IMG/VR virus record: IMGVR_UViG_3300023174_003433
Location: 53,728-117,727 of that record
Direction: 5' to 3' (one strand)
Source: a virus
Length of the DNA: 64,000 nucleotides
The translations under genes were made by a program, and so were the position numbers. This document shows, piece after piece, positions 36,660 to 45,223 of the stretch. Each line of letters opens with the position of its first letter. Position 1 is the stretch's first letter. The notes beneath the pieces are model-generated. The model had not been told where the DNA came from and did not search any database. It saw only the letters and a list, made by a program, of their open reading frames with translations.

Positions 36660-37324
36660 TTGTATTGGTCCTTATAAAATTGTATGGCCTTTACCAAACC
36701 ATCGATATGATGTTCTGTTTTTTCTTGGAACAATAAAGGTTGTTCATCTTGTACTGCCATGATAATGACCAAATTATTTATTGGTGTGCCAATCAATTCT
36801 TCATACATGAGTGCATATGCTGATGTTTGCCAGAAATAATCTTCAATCTCAACTTTAGATTTTATTTTCTTAGATGTTTTAAAATCAATTACAGATAATA
36901 CACCATCAAACTCACCAATACAATCTACACGACCTGCCATACCTAATTGTTTAGACCATAGTGCTTGTTCTTGGTAATGAATATTATTGATACGATTGAG
37001 TAATGGCTTGATTGATTTAAACATTTCTTTGGCATCAGGCATAATATCACCTAACGATTCATTGTTTAAATAACGTTCACATAGTGTATGAACATTGGTG
37101 CCACGACCTGTGGCGGCCTTTGATATTCTATTGGCCTCTGCTTCACCAACTCGTTTACGCCATGCCATGATGGCATCTTTCTTTTGTGCACCAAGAACTG
37201 TGGTGACCGATGGCAACTTTGTGCCATCTTCTAATGTATAGTATCGTTTACCATCAGGAAAAGTTTCGGATTGTAAGTCTTTTAGTTCTTTTGGTGAACA
37301 GTAATTAAACATTCTTTTTCTCAA
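36656..37324 (-). CDS. PD-(D/E)XK exonuclease (RecB/Cas4-like)
   Basis: 222 residues; ATG at 37312 (MFNYCSPKEL) is an equally good start. Motifs: SVTTVLGAQKKDAIMAWRKRVGEAEANRISKAATGRGTNVHTLCERYL (the GxxxH..E motif I), then WSKQLGMAGRVDCIGEFDGVLSVIDFKTSKK, with Asp and the DFKTSK core of the nuclease. A QTSAYALMYEEL motif follows. Such enzymes are frequent in T4-like phages of aquatic hosts, where they probably process recombination ends or degrade host DNA. Substrate not determined. Confidence 0.85.
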   Translation of the reverse strand: MRKRMFNYCSPKELKDLQSETFPDGKRYYTLEDGTKLPSVTTVLGAQKKDAIMAWRKRVGEAEANRISKAATGRGTNVHTLCERYLNNESLGDIMPDAKEMFKSIKPLLNRINNIHYQEQALWSKQLGMAGRVDCIGEFDGVLSVIDFKTSKKIKSKVEIEDYFWQTSAYALMYEELIGTPINNLVIIMAVQDEQPLLFQEKTEHHIDGLVKAIQFYKDQYK

Positions 37325-37907
37325 ATTTAGGTATCAATAAAAATTCTCTTGTTATATCTATAATATAAATTAATCTTCTTTTGTTTGTTCTATTATATGC
37401 ACTATGTAATTCTCCATTATCAAAAGCAAACAAATTTGACCAATTGGTTGTTAAACCATTAACTTCAAAACCAGAATCTCCTTCGGGTATGATTAGTGGT
37501 ATATGTATTCTAACACTATTATGTGACCTATTTTCAACATCAACGTGTTTTTTAATTATTCCACCAGATTCTAAAATACTATAACCACTACAACCACAAT
37601 GTTTAATATATTTTTGTGTTAATGTTGATGCTGTTGGAAAAGCATTTGACACCTTTGGATCTAAAAACATATTACTCTCTTTTTTTTGTTCTGGCAAGAA
37701 GTATCGTAAACCTTCAACTTTCCAATCCACTTTTCCGGGAACATGATCTAAAATAGCCAATGGATTTGCCTTAGAATAGGGAATACCTCCCTTAAATGTG
37801 GTGTCAAAATCTTTGTGGTGGGCTAAAAATTCACTTCGTAAGTTTGGTACCAATGATAATAATTCATCCGCAATATGTATTTCTTCTTTTGTCCAAAGAT
37901 ATTTCAT
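37305..37907 (-). CDS. Aspartyl/asparaginyl beta-hydroxylase-like 2OG oxygenase
   Basis: 200 residues. The double-stranded beta-helix signature is visible: GGIIKKHVDVENRSHNSVRIHIPLII (HxD iron ligands), FEVNG, LFAFDNGELHSAYNRTNKRRLIYIIDI (distal His and the 2-oxoglutarate-binding Arg). This is the pattern of Asp/Asn beta-hydroxylase-like dioxygenases. First member of a run of oxygenase-like genes. Protein or small-molecule target unknown. Confidence 0.78.
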   Translation of the reverse strand: MKYLWTKEEIHIADELLSLVPNLRSEFLAHHKDFDTTFKGGIPYSKANPLAILDHVPGKVDWKVEGLRYFLPEQKKESNMFLDPKVSNAFPTASTLTQKYIKHCGCSGYSILESGGIIKKHVDVENRSHNSVRIHIPLIIPEGDSGFEVNGLTTNWSNLFAFDNGELHSAYNRTNKRRLIYIIDITREFLLIPKFEKKNV

Positions 37908-39424
37908 TGTATGCCCAACTTTAATTTTTTATATTCTAAAATGGTTTGATCCGCTTCTCGTATTTTTTTATTTAAAAAAGACTTGTCAAAATTGCCATCA
38001 ATAATGTCTTTAATATCAACACCCATACCAACCAATTCATAAACATCATGGTTGATACTAACTCCCTTATCGGCATTTCCATAAATCGATTTACCAGCTT
38101 TAATTCTGTGTTTTTCGGTCTCAATATTTAATTGATTAGTAATTGTTCTGGCCGTGTGCCAGTTCGTATATTTGTTTTTCCATATCATCACACCATTATT
38201 ATCCGTACCATATTTTATATCATCATCAACTTTTGGTATGGAATATTCTCCTGGTAACAGTTCAGTATAACCCCATTTGTCATATTCTTTTTCAAATTCA
38301 CTTAGGCGGCTTATTGAACCTTTTCTAATTAACAACGGCCACCAATCCCAATTATCGAACACTTCAAAGTTTTGGTCAAGTAACATTTGTTGGCTTTTAA
38401 TCACACTAGAGATTGGTTCTCCTGGTAAACCACAAATCATACCAGTATATGTATAGATTGGTTTGTATTTCTTTAATTGCCTAATTGCCTCAAACTGTCT
38501 TTCATTATCTAATCCTTTGCCAATGGCTTTCTTTGCTTCTGGATGAAATGTTTCTAAACCAAAAGTTGCAGCGACTAATCCTGTATCGGCCAACATTGGA
38601 ATTGTTTCAGGAAAAGCCTCAATTAAATCTGCTCTGAGAAATGCTGTATATGTTATTTTTATTCCACTTTTAGCAATTGCTTCAGCAACATATTCCAATT
38701 TAACTACATTATCATTAAAGGTATCATCATTAAACCAATAATTATTGACACCAAACATTTCATAATTTCTTCTCAACTCAGCAGATAGGTTATCCACATG
38801 ACGAATATAATCATTCTTTTTTTTACCTAAAAGTGGAAAGGCACAAAATCTACATCTAAAAATACAACCTCTACTAATTTCAATCGGTAAAAAATTGTTT
38901 TTAATCAAATCACTTTCCAACCATTTGATTGTCAGGTCGCTAGAATCATTCTTGTATAACATTTCCGCATTGATTGATTTTGTTCCACGATAAGGCACCC
39001 ACGGCAAATCATTCAAAAGCTTTTTATTAAGAAATTTCATGTAGTGTAACATGGCTTCTTCAGAATACCCCCAAACAATTCTATCTACTTGTGTCAAATC
39101 AACACCTTCAATAGGAGTTTCACTACCACCAATTAGTGTTTGTACTTTTGGATATTTTTCTTTGATGTGTTTGAATAGATAATTAATTTTATCGAATGCA
39201 TATATGAATGTTATACTGATACCAATAAACAAAGTTTTTGGTCCAATATATCTTTCACAAAGTAGTTCTAGTTCTCTTTCAGTAAAATTACCAAAATAAT
39301 CTATAACTTCAATATTGTAATTGTGTTGTTCTAAAAAAGTTCTTAGGCGTGCGGCACCAGCAGGACGACTAATTGTCCTAGTTCTTTCCATACCAGTGAA
39401 TATAATACCATGCCGATCATCCAT
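37904..39424 (-). CDS. B12-binding-type radical SAM protein
   Basis: 506 residues. Residues ~15-140 look like a cobalamin-binding Rossmann domain (PAGAARLRTFLEQHNYNIEVIDYFGNF...TLIGGSETPIEG) without a clear DxHxxG. The radical SAM core has Cys187, Cys191 and Cys194 in ISRGCIFRCRFCAF, followed by WFNDDTF and CGLPGEP motifs. This architecture is shared with BchE-like and methyltransferase or epimerase-type enzymes. It overlaps the neighbouring oxygenase by 4 bp. Together with the SPASM enzyme downstream it suggests modification of a peptide or glycan. Reaction unknown. Confidence 0.82.
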   Translation of the reverse strand: MDDRHGIIFTGMERTRTISRPAGAARLRTFLEQHNYNIEVIDYFGNFTERELELLCERYIGPKTLFIGISITFIYAFDKINYLFKHIKEKYPKVQTLIGGSETPIEGVDLTQVDRIVWGYSEEAMLHYMKFLNKKLLNDLPWVPYRGTKSINAEMLYKNDSSDLTIKWLESDLIKNNFLPIEISRGCIFRCRFCAFPLLGKKKNDYIRHVDNLSAELRRNYEMFGVNNYWFNDDTFNDNVVKLEYVAEAIAKSGIKITYTAFLRADLIEAFPETIPMLADTGLVAATFGLETFHPEAKKAIGKGLDNERQFEAIRQLKKYKPIYTYTGMICGLPGEPISSVIKSQQMLLDQNFEVFDNWDWWPLLIRKGSISRLSEFEKEYDKWGYTELLPGEYSIPKVDDDIKYGTDNNGVMIWKNKYTNWHTARTITNQLNIETEKHRIKAGKSIYGNADKGVSINHDVYELVGMGVDIKDIIDGNFDKSFLNKKIREADQTILEYKKLKLGIQ

Positions 39425-39427
39425 AAT

Positions 39428-40201
39428 TTATTTTTTAGTTAAATATTTTTCTTTGATTGCTTCAAAGAAATCAATATCTTCTTCAGTCAATTCAACACTT
39501 TCAATTTTTTCCATTTGGCCACGAATATAGTTACGATACAATTCAAAATCACCTTCATATTTAAAATTCTTTGTAATTTTTTTTGTATCGTAAGCATCCA
39601 TAATAATATGGTACCGATCTTCGTCAGAATCATTTCTAATTTGGTGCCAAAGATTTGTCCAAAGAATCCAAACACCACCATCTGCCGGCATGTGTAGATT
39701 TTTACCTTGGCATATGTGAACAGATTTTTTATTAGTCCACAATGGTATGTGTATGCGGGTCATATATTCGGAAGAATTTGCATCTCTATGAATTAAACTC
39801 TTTGAGTGTGCTTTTAGACAAGCAACTCTCGCTCTACACGGAGTTAATCCAAGCTCACGCAAATCATCCAATACTTTTTTAATTTCACCAACATACGCTT
39901 CTGTTGGTTTGTCATGTTCTAATCCATGATAAATGTTAAAATGTTTATATGCTTTCCAAATTAATTCTTGTGTAGGTAAAAAGGACTCTAATGTTTGTCC
40001 TTGTTCTAGTTGAATTGCTTCCCAGCCATCAGTCCATGTGGCATTTCTACTCAACAAACTCCAACCACCAAAACCATGATATTTTGGTGTTTCATATTCT
40101 TTACCTTGAACAACTTGGTCACCTAAAATGAAAACACTTTCACGGACTTCTTTTTTTAATTTTTCAATATCAACTGTATAATCTAATTTTTCAAAAAACA
40201 T
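39428..40201 (-). CDS. 2OG-Fe(II) oxygenase-like protein (beta-hydroxylase type)
   Basis: 257 residues. Core signature: LIHRDANSSEYMTRIHIPLWTNKKSVHI (HxD ligands and a substrate-strand RIHIP), then GGVWILWTNLWHQIRNDSDEDRYHIIMDAYD (distal His, Arg). The N-terminal GFGGWSLLSRNATWTDGW is conserved in Asp/Asn hydroxylase-like phage proteins. It lies between the B12 radical SAM gene and two further oxygenase-like genes. Substrate not known. Confidence 0.75.
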   Translation of the reverse strand: MFFEKLDYTVDIEKLKKEVRESVFILGDQVVQGKEYETPKYHGFGGWSLLSRNATWTDGWEAIQLEQGQTLESFLPTQELIWKAYKHFNIYHGLEHDKPTEAYVGEIKKVLDDLRELGLTPCRARVACLKAHSKSLIHRDANSSEYMTRIHIPLWTNKKSVHICQGKNLHMPADGGVWILWTNLWHQIRNDSDEDRYHIIMDAYDTKKITKNFKYEGDFELYRNYIRGQMEKIESVELTEEDIDFFEAIKEKYLTKK

Positions 40202-40212
40202 TTTTATTTCCT

Positions 40213-40881
40213 TTATAAATTTCCAGTTTCTTTTAACATTTCGTACACTTGTTCATAGTTATAGTGTCTGGTTCTTAAAGCAAAAGCTTTTCTAAGTTTT
40301 GTGCCATCCAATGGTTCAACATTATGTGCCACACTAACATCTAACAAATACGCTTCATTCTTATTAGCGACAAATGAACCAATTTCATACACATCGTCAA
40401 AAGTATATACTGCATCAACATATGTAATTTCTTCACAAGTGGGCATATTTTGTTTCTCAGCTACAAACTCTTTAACTTTAGTTTTTAAATCTTCCACATT
40501 AATATCTTTTGCTTGCATATTGCCAGTTGTAACCTCTGTGTGCCTATCTTCTTCTGTTTTCCAAGAATTTGCACCTGGTTTTGCTTTCCAAAAAATAGTT
40601 TTATAATCTCCTGGTTCATAATAAAAATTAATTGTTGTTATAAAATCATTATCAACATGAGGTAACAATAAACTATTAATTGACATTCTCGTTACTTGAA
40701 AATCTTTCCAATACCTTTCTGGAATAACTTTATATAAAGTTTCACGTTCAGGTTCTGGTGTCCAAATTGTACTGTGTCTTACTCCTAATCCATATTTTCC
40801 TGCAAATGAATCAGCCTGACCTTTTGGTATAATTGTGTGTGGCATATATTCATAGAGGTGTTTTAATTTAACAAATGCCAT
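40213..40881 (-). CDS. 2OG oxygenase-like protein, paralogue A
   Basis: 222 residues. Contains SLLLPHVDNDFITTINFYYEPGDYKTIFWK (HxD and strand) and AYLLDVSVAHNVEPLDGTKLRKAFALRT (distal His and Arg). It is clearly homologous to the next protein: both share ERYWKDF/RRYWQDFHLT and end YEQVYEMLKETGN-type sequence. Tandem duplication is therefore likely. Target unknown; start overlaps the paralogue's end by 14 bp. Confidence 0.7.
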   Translation of the reverse strand: MAFVKLKHLYEYMPHTIIPKGQADSFAGKYGLGVRHSTIWTPEPERETLYKVIPERYWKDFQVTRMSINSLLLPHVDNDFITTINFYYEPGDYKTIFWKAKPGANSWKTEEDRHTEVTTGNMQAKDINVEDLKTKVKEFVAEKQNMPTCEEITYVDAVYTFDDVYEIGSFVANKNEAYLLDVSVAHNVEPLDGTKLRKAFALRTRHYNYEQVYEMLKETGNL

Positions 40882-41401
40882 TACCTGTTTCCTTTAACAT
40901 TTTAAGGACATCTTCATACTTATGTATGAAAGTTCCTAGTGTAAGTGCTTTTCTTAAATTAAAATTCCCTTGTACGCCGTGTATTTGAGTTACATCAAGT
41001 AACCAAATTTCAAAATCTTTGGCAATAAAACTATCTACCTCAATCAAATCTTCTTCAAAATAAATGTGACCATTAGTTTGATTTTTAACCTGTATAGTTT
41101 TTAAATCATTATTTTTTGGTTTATAAAATACAGTTTTACAACCTTCTGTTTGCAAATAAAAATTAATTGAAGTAATTATTTCCGTGTCTGTGTGAGGAGG
41201 TATTATACAGTCAATTGTCATTATTGTCAAGTGAAAATCTTGCCAATACCTTCTTGGTAATATACCATAAAGTTTTTCTGCTTCGGGTGACCATATCTTT
41301 TTGTAATCAATACCCTTGCCATTATCACCTTTAAATGATTTTAACGGATCGGTAATTGCATAAAGTGGTTTTTCAAATGTTTTTTCCAATCTGGCAAACA
41401 T
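40868..41401 (-). CDS. 2OG oxygenase-like protein, paralogue B
   Basis: 177 residues. RRYWQDFHLTIMTIDCIIPPHTDTEIITSINFYLQTEGCKTVFYKPK gives the HxD pair and the beta strand; IWLLDVTQIHGVQGNFNLRKALTLGTF gives the distal His and Arg. It lacks the ~45-residue middle insertion of paralogue A. Likely iron and 2-oxoglutarate dependent by fold; activity inferred only. One-base overlap with the upstream oxygenase. Confidence 0.7.
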   Translation of the reverse strand: MFARLEKTFEKPLYAITDPLKSFKGDNGKGIDYKKIWSPEAEKLYGILPRRYWQDFHLTIMTIDCIIPPHTDTEIITSINFYLQTEGCKTVFYKPKNNDLKTIQVKNQTNGHIYFEEDLIEVDSFIAKDFEIWLLDVTQIHGVQGNFNLRKALTLGTFIHKYEDVLKMLKETGNGIC

Positions 41402-42111
41402 TACTCAAGTTTCCACTCTTTGATTTTGGACATTCTGCCTGCCCAACTTTTTAAGATAACAGTATTTGATGCGTCTTTATCGACTACTTTTCTTAGGTCG
41501 GTCGATAATGAAATTCTTAAATCATCTGATTTGTTTTCATCAATACCATGTAACACATAAGACGGGAAGAAAATTAATCTACCTTCAACGGGTTTATATC
41601 TACGTTCACGCATGAAAGGACTGCCACTTAAACGATTATTCTCCCAATCAATGGCATGAGAAGAATCAAATGCCACTAAATCACCACAACCTTCTTTGGC
41701 TTTGATGTAATATGTTGCAGCAATTGCTGATTCAGTATGTCCGTGTACTTCAAGTCTTTCACCTGGTTCCCGTACATTGACCCAACCCATGAAATGTTCA
41801 CAACCACGAATATTTAACATACGAAGTTGTGGTATGTTCTGTACAATTTTTCTAGTTACAATATCAATAATTTCTTGTTTAAGTATATCTAAATTGGGTC
41901 TGCTGTAGTCCCATATACTATTATGAGGATCTCTATCTACACCTAAGGCAATATTTTTACCAATGGCATAAATTTCTTCTAATAAAACTTCATTGAATGA
42001 TGTATCGAATTTGGTTTGTTCTTCCCAGATTGGGCTTTGCCAAAACATATTTTGTGCATTTTGATACCAATGATAACGATCCCTATCAGCTTTTGTTTTA
42101 AAACTATTCAT
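41401..42111 (-). CDS. 2OG-Fe(II) oxygenase-like protein of the HxE/HxD...H type
   Basis: 236 residues. FMGWVNVREPGERLEVHGHTESAIAATYYIKAKEGCGDLVAFDSS, then GRLIFFPSYVLHGIDENKSDDLRISLSTDLRK resemble the putative 2OG oxygenases that are very common in T4-like phages of aquatic bacteria. The distal His lies in VLHGI and the co-substrate Arg in RISLS. Known relatives are of unknown target. It is 12 bp from the next gene, so operonic. Confidence 0.78.
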   Translation of the reverse strand: MNSFKTKADRDRYHWYQNAQNMFWQSPIWEEQTKFDTSFNEVLLEEIYAIGKNIALGVDRDPHNSIWDYSRPNLDILKQEIIDIVTRKIVQNIPQLRMLNIRGCEHFMGWVNVREPGERLEVHGHTESAIAATYYIKAKEGCGDLVAFDSSHAIDWENNRLSGSPFMRERRYKPVEGRLIFFPSYVLHGIDENKSDDLRISLSTDLRKVVDKDASNTVILKSWAGRMSKIKEWKLE

Positions 42112-42123
42112 AATAAAATATTA

Positions 42124-42510
42124 CTACTTATTTTCTTTTGCAAAGAGCTCTGCGTGAAGTCTTAATCTTTCCATTTTAGCTTGATGTGCTTCTTCTGTTA
42201 TGTCAGCATCTTTTGCCATGTCTAAAGCGTATCGATATTCTTCTATAGGATTTCTTTCTTCATCTTGAAAAACCCATCCGGCACCAATACTTTTAACAGC
42301 TACTTGCAAAGGAGATTTCCATACTCTATCTAAAATATCCCCATAATTCTGTTCAATTAAATAAACTTCTTCTTTTTCTTCTGGTGAAAGTTTCAAGTAA
42401 TTTTGTTCGAAAATAGTTTTAAAAAATTCTCCCACACACATTGGGTTGAATATAATTGTATTGCCATCATGTGTTGTTAAAGTTTCTAATGAAGTAAAAG
42501 TATTTTTCAT
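42124..42510 (-). CDS. Hypothetical protein, 128 aa
   Basis: MKNTFTSLETLTTHDGNTIIFNPMCVGEFFKTIF with an acidic helical C-terminal half ending EEAHQAKMERLRLHAELFAKENK. Not recognised. Its position inside the oxygenase/radical SAM island and 4-bp overlap with the next gene suggest a partner protein, for instance a binding or chaperone component. Confidence 0.6.
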   Translation of the reverse strand: MKNTFTSLETLTTHDGNTIIFNPMCVGEFFKTIFEQNYLKLSPEEKEEVYLIEQNYGDILDRVWKSPLQVAVKSIGAGWVFQDEERNPIEEYRYALDMAKDADITEEAHQAKMERLRLHAELFAKENK

Positions 42511-42830
42511 TGTTTATCCAGCCATAATTTATATTCTCGAATTAATTCGTTATTTACACCTTTTCTTAAAGCCACAGGCAAAAATACTATAGAATTTAAC
42601 ATTGAATTTCCATATAAATTAGTTATCATTTTTTCATGGTCTGTTACCATCTTAAAATATCTTTCTTTATCTTGTTTTGAAAAAGAACTAATAATTTCAT
42701 AACTAATGACATTGGCAAAATAAGAAACATGGTCATGTATATACTGGCCATTATCGTCTGCAGTTATTTCAACCGCTTTAAGTTTTCCTTTAGGTTTTTT
42801 CTTTATAAAGGTTTTTCTTAATTCTTTCAT
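42507..42830 (-). CDS. Hypothetical protein, 107 aa
   Basis: Basic N-terminus (MKELRKTFIKKKPKGKLKAVEI) then a helical region (DKERYFKMVTDHEKMITNLYGNS). No family recognised. It overlaps the cysteine-rich protein's stop by one base, so the two are translationally coupled; it may act on or accompany that protein. Confidence 0.6.
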   Translation of the reverse strand: MKELRKTFIKKKPKGKLKAVEITADDNGQYIHDHVSYFANVISYEIISSFSKQDKERYFKMVTDHEKMITNLYGNSMLNSIVFLPVALRKGVNNELIREYKLWLDKQ

Positions 42831-43732
42831 TAAACAATTTTCCTTTGTGGTGTCAATTTTTCAATCATTCGGCCAAGTTCAGCAACTAGTTTAAACATGA
42901 CAAAAATAACAACAAGAGATGCACCTTTAATGAATCCTGGTTTCTTTTTACTTGGACCAAACCAACGGCGCCATACACCCACAACTTTACAAATTGGTAT
43001 GCCAAAAATCATTAACATTTTACCGGCAATACTACCAGTTTCTTTTTCGCCCATCATATAGGCCATTTCTTCAGCCCAAGGTGTTGCAATATCATAAGCC
43101 CAAGATGTTGACCATTTCTTGGCAGCAATACTAAATTCTTCGTCATTCATCCAAGGCATCATTTTTGGACCTTTACCTTCCATCCAATCAACGACAATTT
43201 CAGCCCATGCTCTGTAACCATTGTAAATGTCTGGATTGGTCTTAATTAGTCTTTCACCAAATGCTTGGTCGGCTTCAAAAATGCTTTGCTTCATAAGGCC
43301 AATTTCAAATAATTTAGTACAAATAATTTTACTACAATTACAATCATATGTGAAGCAATTTTGGTCACTTGTACAATTATATGTGGGTGTTGGCGAAATT
43401 TGACAATTTCCCGTTTGCAACCAAGATTGTGTGTCACAGTTGGCAGCACCTATGTTGGTACAATTATTTGTTGTATAGCATTGAATTGCCTCTCCGCCAC
43501 CACAGTTACTACAGTTGCAATTAGTTACGTTACCATTATTGCAGTTACCCTGGTCATTCTGTAAAAAATAACTTAATCCCCAAAACCCAGCCAAATTTGG
43601 CGTACCTGGTCGTATACCCGGTTTTATGTAATCGTTCAAAAAAGTTAAATCAGCAGCGGTTCCTACAGGAATTCCGAGCTCGGTTTCAATATCCGCTATG
43701 CCAATTGGTTGTCCTGAAGATGGTAATGTCAT
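42830..43732 (-). CDS. Cysteine/asparagine-rich virion-like protein
   Basis: 300 residues. Residues 1-55 form the anchor module of phage fibre-type proteins (MTLPSSGQPIGIADIETELGIP.., TPNLAGFWGLSYF). Residues 64-138 (DNA 43319-43543) hold 13 cysteines, often as CxC or CNC, set in Asn/Gly/Thr. The C-terminal ~150 residues are helical with a hydrophobic stretch (GASLVVIFVMFKLVAELG). It has its own late promoter and sits next to a SPASM radical SAM enzyme. A modified structural protein or RiPP-like precursor is inferred. Disulfide-bonded or metal-binding alternatives remain open. Confidence 0.7.
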   Translation of the reverse strand: MTLPSSGQPIGIADIETELGIPVGTAADLTFLNDYIKPGIRPGTPNLAGFWGLSYFLQNDQGNCNNGNVTNCNCSNCGGGEAIQCYTTNNCTNIGAANCDTQSWLQTGNCQISPTPTYNCTSDQNCFTYDCNCSKIICTKLFEIGLMKQSIFEADQAFGERLIKTNPDIYNGYRAWAEIVVDWMEGKGPKMMPWMNDEEFSIAAKKWSTSWAYDIATPWAEEMAYMMGEKETGSIAGKMLMIFGIPICKVVGVWRRWFGPSKKKPGFIKGASLVVIFVMFKLVAELGRMIEKLTPQRKIV

Positions 43733-43765: not shown

Positions 43766-43773
43766 TATTTATA
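43766..43773 (-). promoter_or_regulatory. T4-type late promoter of the cysteine-rich gene
   Basis: A perfect TATAAATA on the minus strand, 34 bp upstream of the cysteine-rich gene and overlapping the stop of the SPASM radical SAM gene. It marks the cysteine-rich protein and the oxygenase genes below it as late genes. Confidence 0.7.
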
Positions 43774-45223
43774 CTTCCAAACGAGATTTGCCGTATACAG
43801 GAACATCGTCTACTTGACCAACAATTTCTTTTACAACTTTAATTGGTATGATTTTTTTATTGGATTTTTCTTCTTCATGTTGAAAGATAGTACCAAAAAT
43901 GTCTTGTCTATCTAATGGTAAAGTATCACTCTTAATTAAAGTGGGTACATATCCATTGGTTATTAAGGTGAATGCCGAAGCAAACAAAGCCACATTATCT
44001 GAATAGGCATTGGCACATGAGATGTCCCAAAACTTTTCATCCAAGAACATACAGGCACCTTTACAAATGTGTAGTACAGGACACTCAGGACATTCTTTAC
44101 GATTTGACCAATGAGTAACTGATTTGAGTTCTACGTTTGAATAATCACTCAAATTACCACCATGATGTGATTCTCCATTCTTTGAGATTTCTAAAGAACT
44201 GACATTTTGACAGGTCATTACATTTCCACGTAAATCCACTGCAATGGTATGTTCGTCATCCATACCACATTTTTGGCCTAAGTATTTTGCTTCTGAGTGA
44301 TTTAAAATAGATTGAATCAAACTGTCAATTTTACCCAATTGAGCAACAAATCCTATTTTACCTCCAGTACCATACAATTCACCAAAAGCTTTTTTTCTGA
44401 ATTCAAAATGTTCTTTTTTTGTAATTAAAGAGTTTGAAATGCCTTCTTCATCATAAGCATCAACCAAAGAACCTTCACCAAGTTTAACGTCCTCATCACC
44501 AGTTAAATTCACAAACCAATCATAAATTTCTTTTCTACTTTGATTTTTAGAATTCAACATCGAATTAAAACTAAATTTTTTACCTAAACGAGTCATCATT
44601 CTATAAAACCCAAGAATAGTTTCTTTCTTTTCTGGATCGTCAAAAGGATCTGGACCACGAACAAATTGACCAGGACCATCATGTGATATGGCTACAGAAA
44701 AGTCCATCATCATCAACCAATCAATGATTTCATCTGTCAAAATAGAACCATTTGTAATAATACTAAATCTTGGTTTAGTTTTCCAATCATCAAATTTTTC
44801 AGCGATAGCCTCAGCCAAAGGTTTTAATGTTTTCCAATACACAAGAGGTTCACCACCCCAAAATTCGATTGCCAATCCAACATCTTCATCAAAATGTAAA
44901 GATTCTAATTTTTCCATGAAAGCATCGATGTCTTTCTTTGATGTTTCTGGTTGACGTTCAACAAATTTTTGAGAACAATAATCACAAGAATAATTACAAC
45001 TTAAACCCATTTGGATTTTTAAAGTACTAATTAATTTGGCCTTCTTTAATGGATGATTTTTATCAAAAGACTTAAATGGTTTTAAGTTAAAATTTTGTCT
45101 TTGATTTTCTGGATATTCAAAAATATTACCTTCTGCATCCTTTAAGACATTTGCAATGTTGTCATAATGGAAAATTTTTGTATCACCATCCTCAAATCTG
45201 GTGCCTTTAATTTCAAATAGCAT
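43769..45223 (-). CDS. SPASM-domain radical SAM peptide-modifying enzyme
   Basis: 484 residues. Cys76, Cys80 and Cys83 in GLSCNYSCDYCSQKF bind the SAM cluster. FWGGEPLVYWKTL is the GGEP motif. The C-terminal SPASM region has KCGMDDEHTIAVDLRGNVMTC and ECPECPVLHICKGACM for auxiliary Fe-S clusters. The family modifies ribosomal peptides or matures enzymes such as sulfatases. The N-terminal ~65 residues may hold a peptide-recognition part. Its likely target here is the cysteine-rich protein encoded next; that is inference. Confidence 0.85.
   Translation of the reverse strand: MLFEIKGTRFEDGDTKIFHYDNIANVLKDAEGNIFEYPENQRQNFNLKPFKSFDKNHPLKKAKLISTLKIQMGLSCNYSCDYCSQKFVERQPETSKKDIDAFMEKLESLHFDEDVGLAIEFWGGEPLVYWKTLKPLAEAIAEKFDDWKTKPRFSIITNGSILTDEIIDWLMMMDFSVAISHDGPGQFVRGPDPFDDPEKKETILGFYRMMTRLGKKFSFNSMLNSKNQSRKEIYDWFVNLTGDEDVKLGEGSLVDAYDEEGISNSLITKKEHFEFRKKAFGELYGTGGKIGFVAQLGKIDSLIQSILNHSEAKYLGQKCGMDDEHTIAVDLRGNVMTCQNVSSLEISKNGESHHGGNLSDYSNVELKSVTHWSNRKECPECPVLHICKGACMFLDEKFWDISCANAYSDNVALFASAFTLITNGYVPTLIKSDTLPLDRQDIFGTIFQHEEEKSNKKIIPIKVVKEIVGQVDDVPVYGKSRLEV

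Follow-up and report, generated by a model that had tools for sequence, protein, structure and literature searches.

The window examined here, a stretch of 64,000 nucleotides of viral DNA, encodes a Cys/Asn-rich protein and, directly upstream of its gene, a radical SAM (rSAM)/SPASM enzyme, and the pairing of this enzyme with an Asn-Cys tract is strongly supported. We propose that the two probably constitute a two-part system for the maturation of a virion protein, made up of an Asn-Cys tract protein and its own rSAM/SPASM maturase. Within this proposal, the phage's rSAM enzyme very likely acts on the tract as its substrate, and a thioether is the somewhat favoured identity of the bond that would be made. 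More generally, the results suggest that chemical cross-linking of the part of the virion in contact with the host occurs in some viruses. Genes at 3545-29112 for a baseplate, a tail tube and a distal tail fibre, all T4-like, show that the window comes from a T4-like myovirus.

The Asn-Cys tract protein

The Cys/Asn-rich protein, the proposed substrate, is encoded by a 300-amino-acid ORF at 42830-43732 on the minus strand. It is composed of an N-terminal module (aa 1-59, 43556-43732), the Cys tract (aa 64-138, 43319-43543), a C-terminal helical module that we refer to as KIIC (aa 134-258, 42959-43333), after the KIIC sequence (from aa 135) with which it begins, and which comes after polyglycine in other phages, and a C-terminal hydrophobic helix (aa 267-293, 42854-42934) predicted in the AlphaFold2 model. 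The tract holds thirteen Cys (positions 64, 72, 74, 77, 85, 91, 99, 110, 120, 126, 131, 133 and 138), and one further Cys, at position 248, lies outside it. An initial sequence-only reading of the window had described thirteen Cys in the arrangements NCNC, CSNC and DCNC in an Asn-rich setting, and inspection of aa 64-138 bears this out. The pattern is not due to chance: an NC-x-C motif of the tract type is found in only one of the 100 window ORFs of at least 80 aa, namely the 300-aa protein, which is also the only convincing NC-tract protein across the 117.7-kb viral contig.

Conservation was counted in the 55 relatives with the tract among 58 relatives collected. Eight tract positions are Cys in 96-100% of these 55 homologues: Cys 64, 120, 131, 133 and 138 are found in 55/55, Cys 85 and 99 in 54/55 and Cys 74 in 53/55, while the other tract Cys vary among homologues in number and placement. 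The sequence-only reading had held that its proposal should be given up if the Cys were not conserved among homologues; this was looked for and not found, given the retention of the eight positions. Across 40 aligned homologues, Asn directly precedes 76% of the tract Cys, compared with an overall Asn content of 23% in the tract.

Database searches with the protein found no match in Pfam (at an E value of 0.1), PHROGs or NCBIfam, and only chance matches by sequence in the PDB. In the AlphaFold2 model the tract has no confident fold (pLDDT below 50 at aa 57-100 and 109-135) and the C-terminal helices are of moderate confidence; a Foldseek search of viral models with it returned only uncharacterised relatives and one DUF4815 protein. 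The N-terminal module is kept among the protein's own homologues. It had been taken for an anchor common to other fibre genes, but a profile search of the genome found no second copy, and a search of the phage collection found no match. The product had also been described as a phage structural-type protein. The window protein itself has no fibre match in Pfam or PHROGs; NC-tail partners in other phages match tail-fibre families and collagen repeats. A virion location is putative for the window protein and better supported for those relatives that are tail fibres.

The radical SAM/SPASM enzyme

The proposed maturase (43769-45223, minus strand, 484 aa) is encoded by a gene that the sequence-only reading had overlooked and whose end lies 37 nt upstream of the Cys gene. 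It carries the CxxxCxxC motif for the [4Fe-4S] cluster that binds SAM (44975-44998; C76, C80 and C83, invariant in 44 diverse relatives) and matches the Radical_SAM domain PF04055 with 40.3 bits (cut-off 29.5), features that together define the radical SAM superfamily. The SPASM pattern is also complete, with seven further Cys arranged as C, Gx4C, CxxCx5CxxxC and C (C319, C338, C378, C381, C387, C391 and C403), which are invariant in 44 relatives with identity down to about 30%. This pattern assigns the enzyme to the SPASM subfamily and predicts two auxiliary [4Fe-4S] clusters.

By profile the enzyme belongs to phrog_1802 (212 bits, E value 4e-62), a family of radical SAM domain-containing proteins that includes Achromobacter phage JWF gp030 and carries no function or substrate. 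Its best NCBIfam relatives are maturases of Cys peptides (PapB, geopeptide, CcpM, QhpD type, nif11 and SCIFF), all scoring far below their cut-offs: 83 bits against 340 for the PapB-type NF047865, 66.2 against 453 for QhpD TIGR03906 and 55.4 against 425 for the SCIFF maturase TIGR03974. No qhp-like gene is seen among the window neighbours annotated with Pfam and PHROGs. As the enzyme lies far below every curated cut-off, its exact reaction can not be read from family membership. Its AlphaFold2 model is confident (pLDDT 90), and the best VIA-align match is CteB (5why/5wgg, Z 22-23), followed by ChlB and anSME at about 19 and TigE at 17. With regard to a possible PqqD-like RiPP recognition element (RRE), which would bind a leader peptide, the N-terminus of the model is beta-rich, and the alignment with CteB begins at residue 1. 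Ranked by Foldseek E value, anSME and CteB lead jointly, with anSMEcpe at the top.

This last ranking, together with the annotation of the JWF homologue as an anaerobic sulfatase-maturating enzyme, raises the alternative that an anSME-like enzyme oxidises the tract Cys to formylglycine, yielding an aldehyde-rich tip that could bond amines of the host surface. We consider this very unlikely, since the tract is without the sulfatase-type motif C/S-x-P/A-x-R (C-x-P-x-R) and the anSME profile TIGR03942 gives 48.1 bits against a cut-off of 349. The low family scores also leave some room for the enzyme to act on the tract by chemistry other than thioether formation, such as epimerisation, carbon-carbon cross-linking, desaturation or another reaction, in which case some of the role of the Cys would be to ligate clusters or to act as thiols. 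SPASM enzymes are chemically diverse, and the fold is common to ChlB, TigE, SuiB, EpeE and PqqE. However, Cys itself is what is conserved across unrelated partners, with mostly small or Asn neighbours, and the closest whole-chain structure, CteB, is a thioether former, so that we regard a different chemistry as unlikely, although less so than formylglycine formation.

Pairing in close relatives and gene neighbourhood

Relatives of both proteins are present in all 61 of the viral loci that extend at least 6 kb downstream. In a second scan, a relative of the Cys protein was found at 69 of 75 further loci, some contigs of which overlap the first set. At three of the remaining six, a Cys-rich protein with an NC-tract end and no KIIC module is encoded on the opposite flank of the enzyme gene; the other three are truncated at a contig end or are without upstream sequence.

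Downstream of the Cys gene, also on the minus strand, are genes for two small proteins, of 107 aa (42507-42830, with relatives in 27/61 viral loci) and 128 aa (42124-42510, 22/61), followed by a 2OG-Fe(II) oxygenase (41401-42111; PF13759, phrog_81). The latter is found in 53/61 viral loci, in none of the polyglycine controls described below, and in 1/52 cellular loci. Beyond it are a probable 2OG-type oxygenase (40868-41401), which has PHTD and a distal H in its sequence and no Pfam match, a protein resembling it in style (40213-40881), and a member of the Asp/Asn beta-hydroxylase family PF05118 (39428-40201), each kept in 60/61 viral loci. The 2OG oxygenase at 41401-42111 is a possible second modifier. 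The 2OG-oxygenase block was considered as an essential part of the system and rejected: it is kept in the T4-like relatives and found at no more than one of 52 cellular rSAM loci. Missing from the polyglycine controls and from nearly all cellular loci, the 2OG/hydroxylase block does not belong to the core pair. In this T4-like freshwater lineage, the Cys protein may be modified further by the 2OG oxygenases and Asp/Asn hydroxylases, or the block may act on something else.

With two PF05118 proteins (37305-37907 and 39428-40201, both on the minus strand) alongside the 2OG oxygenases, this gene run is a dense set of protein-modifying enzymes. The window also encodes another radical SAM protein (37904-39424, minus strand), which has a B12-binding domain, is present in 21/61 related loci and has as its best NCBIfam relative the P-methyltransferase PhpK (97 of 600 bits).

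Pairing in unrelated fibres

The enzyme is also found beside tracts in other kinds of fibre. Achromobacter phages JWF and 2-1 encode enzymes that are 42-44% identical to that of the window, and the tail fibre 0.7 kb upstream of the enzyme reads RQNCNCDCNCNCSCFPAGT where its Hint domain starts. A scan of bacterial genomes identified 52 further enzyme loci, mostly prophage-like and mainly from Limnohabitans, Polynucleobacter, Burkholderia and Rhodobacteraceae; some names of metagenome-assembled genomes (MAGs), such as Akkermansia, are likely to be binning errors. Most of these cellular loci have a protein with an NC tail 0.6-3 kb upstream of the enzyme, and in many prophages the NC tract is the extreme C-terminus of the tail fibre (for example NFNCNCNCACDCCC, YNCNCNCRC and TNCNCNCGC). 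Several NC-tail partners match tail-fibre families, one of them with long collagen repeats. Taken across the enzyme homologues, partner proteins with NC tracts are 125-616 aa in length.

For the 84 loci that have distinct enzymes and full flanks (4 kb or more upstream and 1.5 kb or more downstream), an Asn-Cys tract is found on the same strand at 80, of which about 78 are credible and two look accidental, and at four there is none, although many loci are close relatives and the counts are therefore not independent. Control stretches on the opposite strand carry a tract in 7 of 200 cases. The enzyme loci without a credible tract nearby are L194, L217, L231, L232 and probably L229 and L230. Loci L229-L232 are from Variovorax and a gammaproteobacterial MAG, and their enzyme possibly has a different substrate. 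At one locus (L166, 2156-4385, minus strand), a divergent rSAM enzyme has beside it a tandem set of three paralogues whose NC tails differ in length, and one of the three carries a KIIC module.

Reverse tests and polyglycine controls

The association was also approached from the other side, by searching for the tract alone with the DNA patterns NCNCxKII and NCxCFPAGT. The enzyme lies beside 39 of 40 viral NCNC-x-KIIC ORFs, the fortieth being at a contig end. In the GGGKIIC control, where polyglycine stands before the module, the enzyme is found in the same stretch at 0/68 scanned ORFs, 43 of which clearly match the KIIC module of the window protein, with identity up to 73%. When 20 polyglycine-KIIC records were searched whole, one contained the enzyme, with its own NC-tract protein adjoining. 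Fibres with a Hint domain behave in the same way, the enzyme accompanying NC-x-CFPAGT in 4/4 records and GGGCFPAGT in 0/10. The enzyme phylogeny shows no fewer than five well supported switches of fibre context (KIIC, Hint or plain tip), with the NC tract retained, indicating that the constant partner of the enzyme is the tract and not the fibre; one Hint row of the tree (L097, the JWF Hint fibre) is wrongly labelled TIP, which leaves the conclusion of several switches unaffected.

These tests bear on two further alternatives. Published papers on phages treat rSAM genes as metabolic cargo (PMC2853527, PMC7029224), and the gene could be an auxiliary metabolic gene that lies in the fibre region by chance. 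The polyglycine-controlled reverse tests and the recurrence of the pair in unrelated phages contradict this, and we regard it as highly improbable. The second alternative is that the tract is a metal-binding element (metallothionein-like or Fe-S) or a disulfide element, with the rSAM enzyme helping indirectly or acting elsewhere. The tract has CxC and CxxC spacings of the kind usual in sites for soft metals, and tips rich in Cys could become oxidised once outside the cell. Metallothioneins, however, require no rSAM maturase, and no metallothionein family in Pfam matches the protein at an E value of 0.1; furthermore, the enzyme accompanies the tract whether the context is Hint, KIIC or a plain C-terminus, and it is absent where polyglycine takes the tract's place, making a metal or disulfide element quite unlikely. 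The sequence-only reading had allowed metal binding, disulfides and enzymatic cross-links alike. The genome context now favours enzymatic cross-linking, because the rSAM/SPASM gene adjoins the Cys gene in the window, lies near the tracts of non-homologous fibres elsewhere and is absent with polyglycine; the shared anchor that was part of the same reading is not borne out.

Polyglycine followed by a KIIC or KIVC helical module is in itself a common and apparently undescribed C-terminal design in phage proteins (L243-L320, for example L244, L257 and L258), with a second subtype that reads KIICTAMN. Two polyglycine-KIIC phages (L018 and L016) have other, distant rSAM genes (E values of about 1e-10 to 1e-12), with no NC tract seen nearby. 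In Synechococcus phage SynMITS9220M01, gp028 (L001, 6669-8519) has about 30 Pro, then about nine Arg, then a KIIC-like module, and its gene adjoins a large fibre gene.

Proposed maturation of the tract

In the mechanism that we propose, the phage would make a fibre-type protein with a tract of Asn-Cys units and spaced Cys, together with a dedicated rSAM/SPASM enzyme. In the reducing cytoplasm of the host and ahead of virion assembly, the enzyme would abstract hydrogens in the tract and link the sulfur atoms of Cys to carbons close by, forming several thioethers as stable cross-links; the Asn that precedes each Cys is a natural, if unproven, candidate for the acceptor carbon. Among SPASM enzymes with Cys-rich substrates, the bonding of Cys sulfur to carbon is common, and it is from this habit and the precedents of QhpD and PapB that several thioethers are proposed. 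Thioethers would also be workable in a reducing cytoplasm, where disulfides could not form. The product would be a rigid, protease-resistant and redox-independent fibre tip or junction. As the tract stands where related fibres have polyglycine and often lies at the very end of the fibre, it is likely to yield a tip or junction that is stiff and stable. That the cross-links serve the stability of the fibre tip or contact with the host has about an even chance of being right. Taking the argument a step further, the KIIC and Hint modules might be cleaved from the fibre as it matures, so that every type would end in an NC tip.

On a broader scale, thioether cross-linking of Asn-Cys tracts may be widespread at the tips of unrelated tail fibres in tailed phages of Proteobacteria, replacing polyglycine, with maturase and tract moving together between fibres; we see the case for and against this generalisation as evenly balanced. 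Radical SAM maturases have been described for peptide natural products and for a handful of enzyme subunits. The full-text literature searched, in which subscription journals are thinly represented, contains no report of an rSAM enzyme acting on a virus particle, and phage rSAM genes are mentioned there as metabolic or accessory genes only. The proposed system would extend rSAM peptide maturation to the fibres of virions and to a substrate motif that is new; we found no earlier description of such a system. If correct, it would give phrog_1802 a function, account for a Cys-dense virion-type protein that is produced in a reducing cytoplasm, and reveal a new way to build fibre tips as well as a substrate code made up of Asn-Cys repeats, of which natural variants exist. 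Because the cultured Achromobacter phages JWF and 2-1 both carry the pair, the proposal is directly testable.

Comparison with known systems

In design, the tract resembles the polyglycine tips of phage fibres, such as the polyglycine sandwich of Salmonella phage S16 gp38, which packs through backbone hydrogen bonds (PMC6851490); both are low-complexity fibre-tip segments. Polyglycine-KIIC fibres have the same KIIC module as the window protein, and polyglycine fibre loci are without Cys or a linked rSAM enzyme.

Among the enzymes, the thioether maturase of SCIFF peptides, CteB (5wgg, 5why), is the best whole-chain structural match, covering residues 1-424 of the window enzyme model with 16% identity in the aligned part. 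The two are alike in their rSAM barrel, SPASM domain and Cys-rich substrate. CteB differs in acting on a short peptide and not a fibre: the SCIFF peptide has six Cys in about 45 residues, whereas the partners found here are 125-616 aa and that of the window is not a SCIFF peptide. The ranthipeptide maturase PapB, the top NCBIfam profile for the window enzyme, forms Cys-Asp/Glu thioethers in substrate motifs that are repeated, and accepts Cys-Xn-Asp spacings with n of 0-6 (PMC9413430); its substrate motif is C-X3-D/E, not N-C. QhpD, working in the cytoplasm, introduces three Cys-Asp/Glu thioethers into a single protein subunit (PMC7876137). Although its acceptors are Asp/Glu, as opposed to the Asn-rich tract seen here, and its product is an enzyme subunit and not a virion part, the QhpD/QhpC system (QhpC being the gamma subunit of quinohemoprotein amine dehydrogenase), in which an rSAM/SPASM enzyme cross-links a structural protein encoded in the same operon, parallels the arrangement that we propose for the phage fibre and its maturase (PMC7876137).
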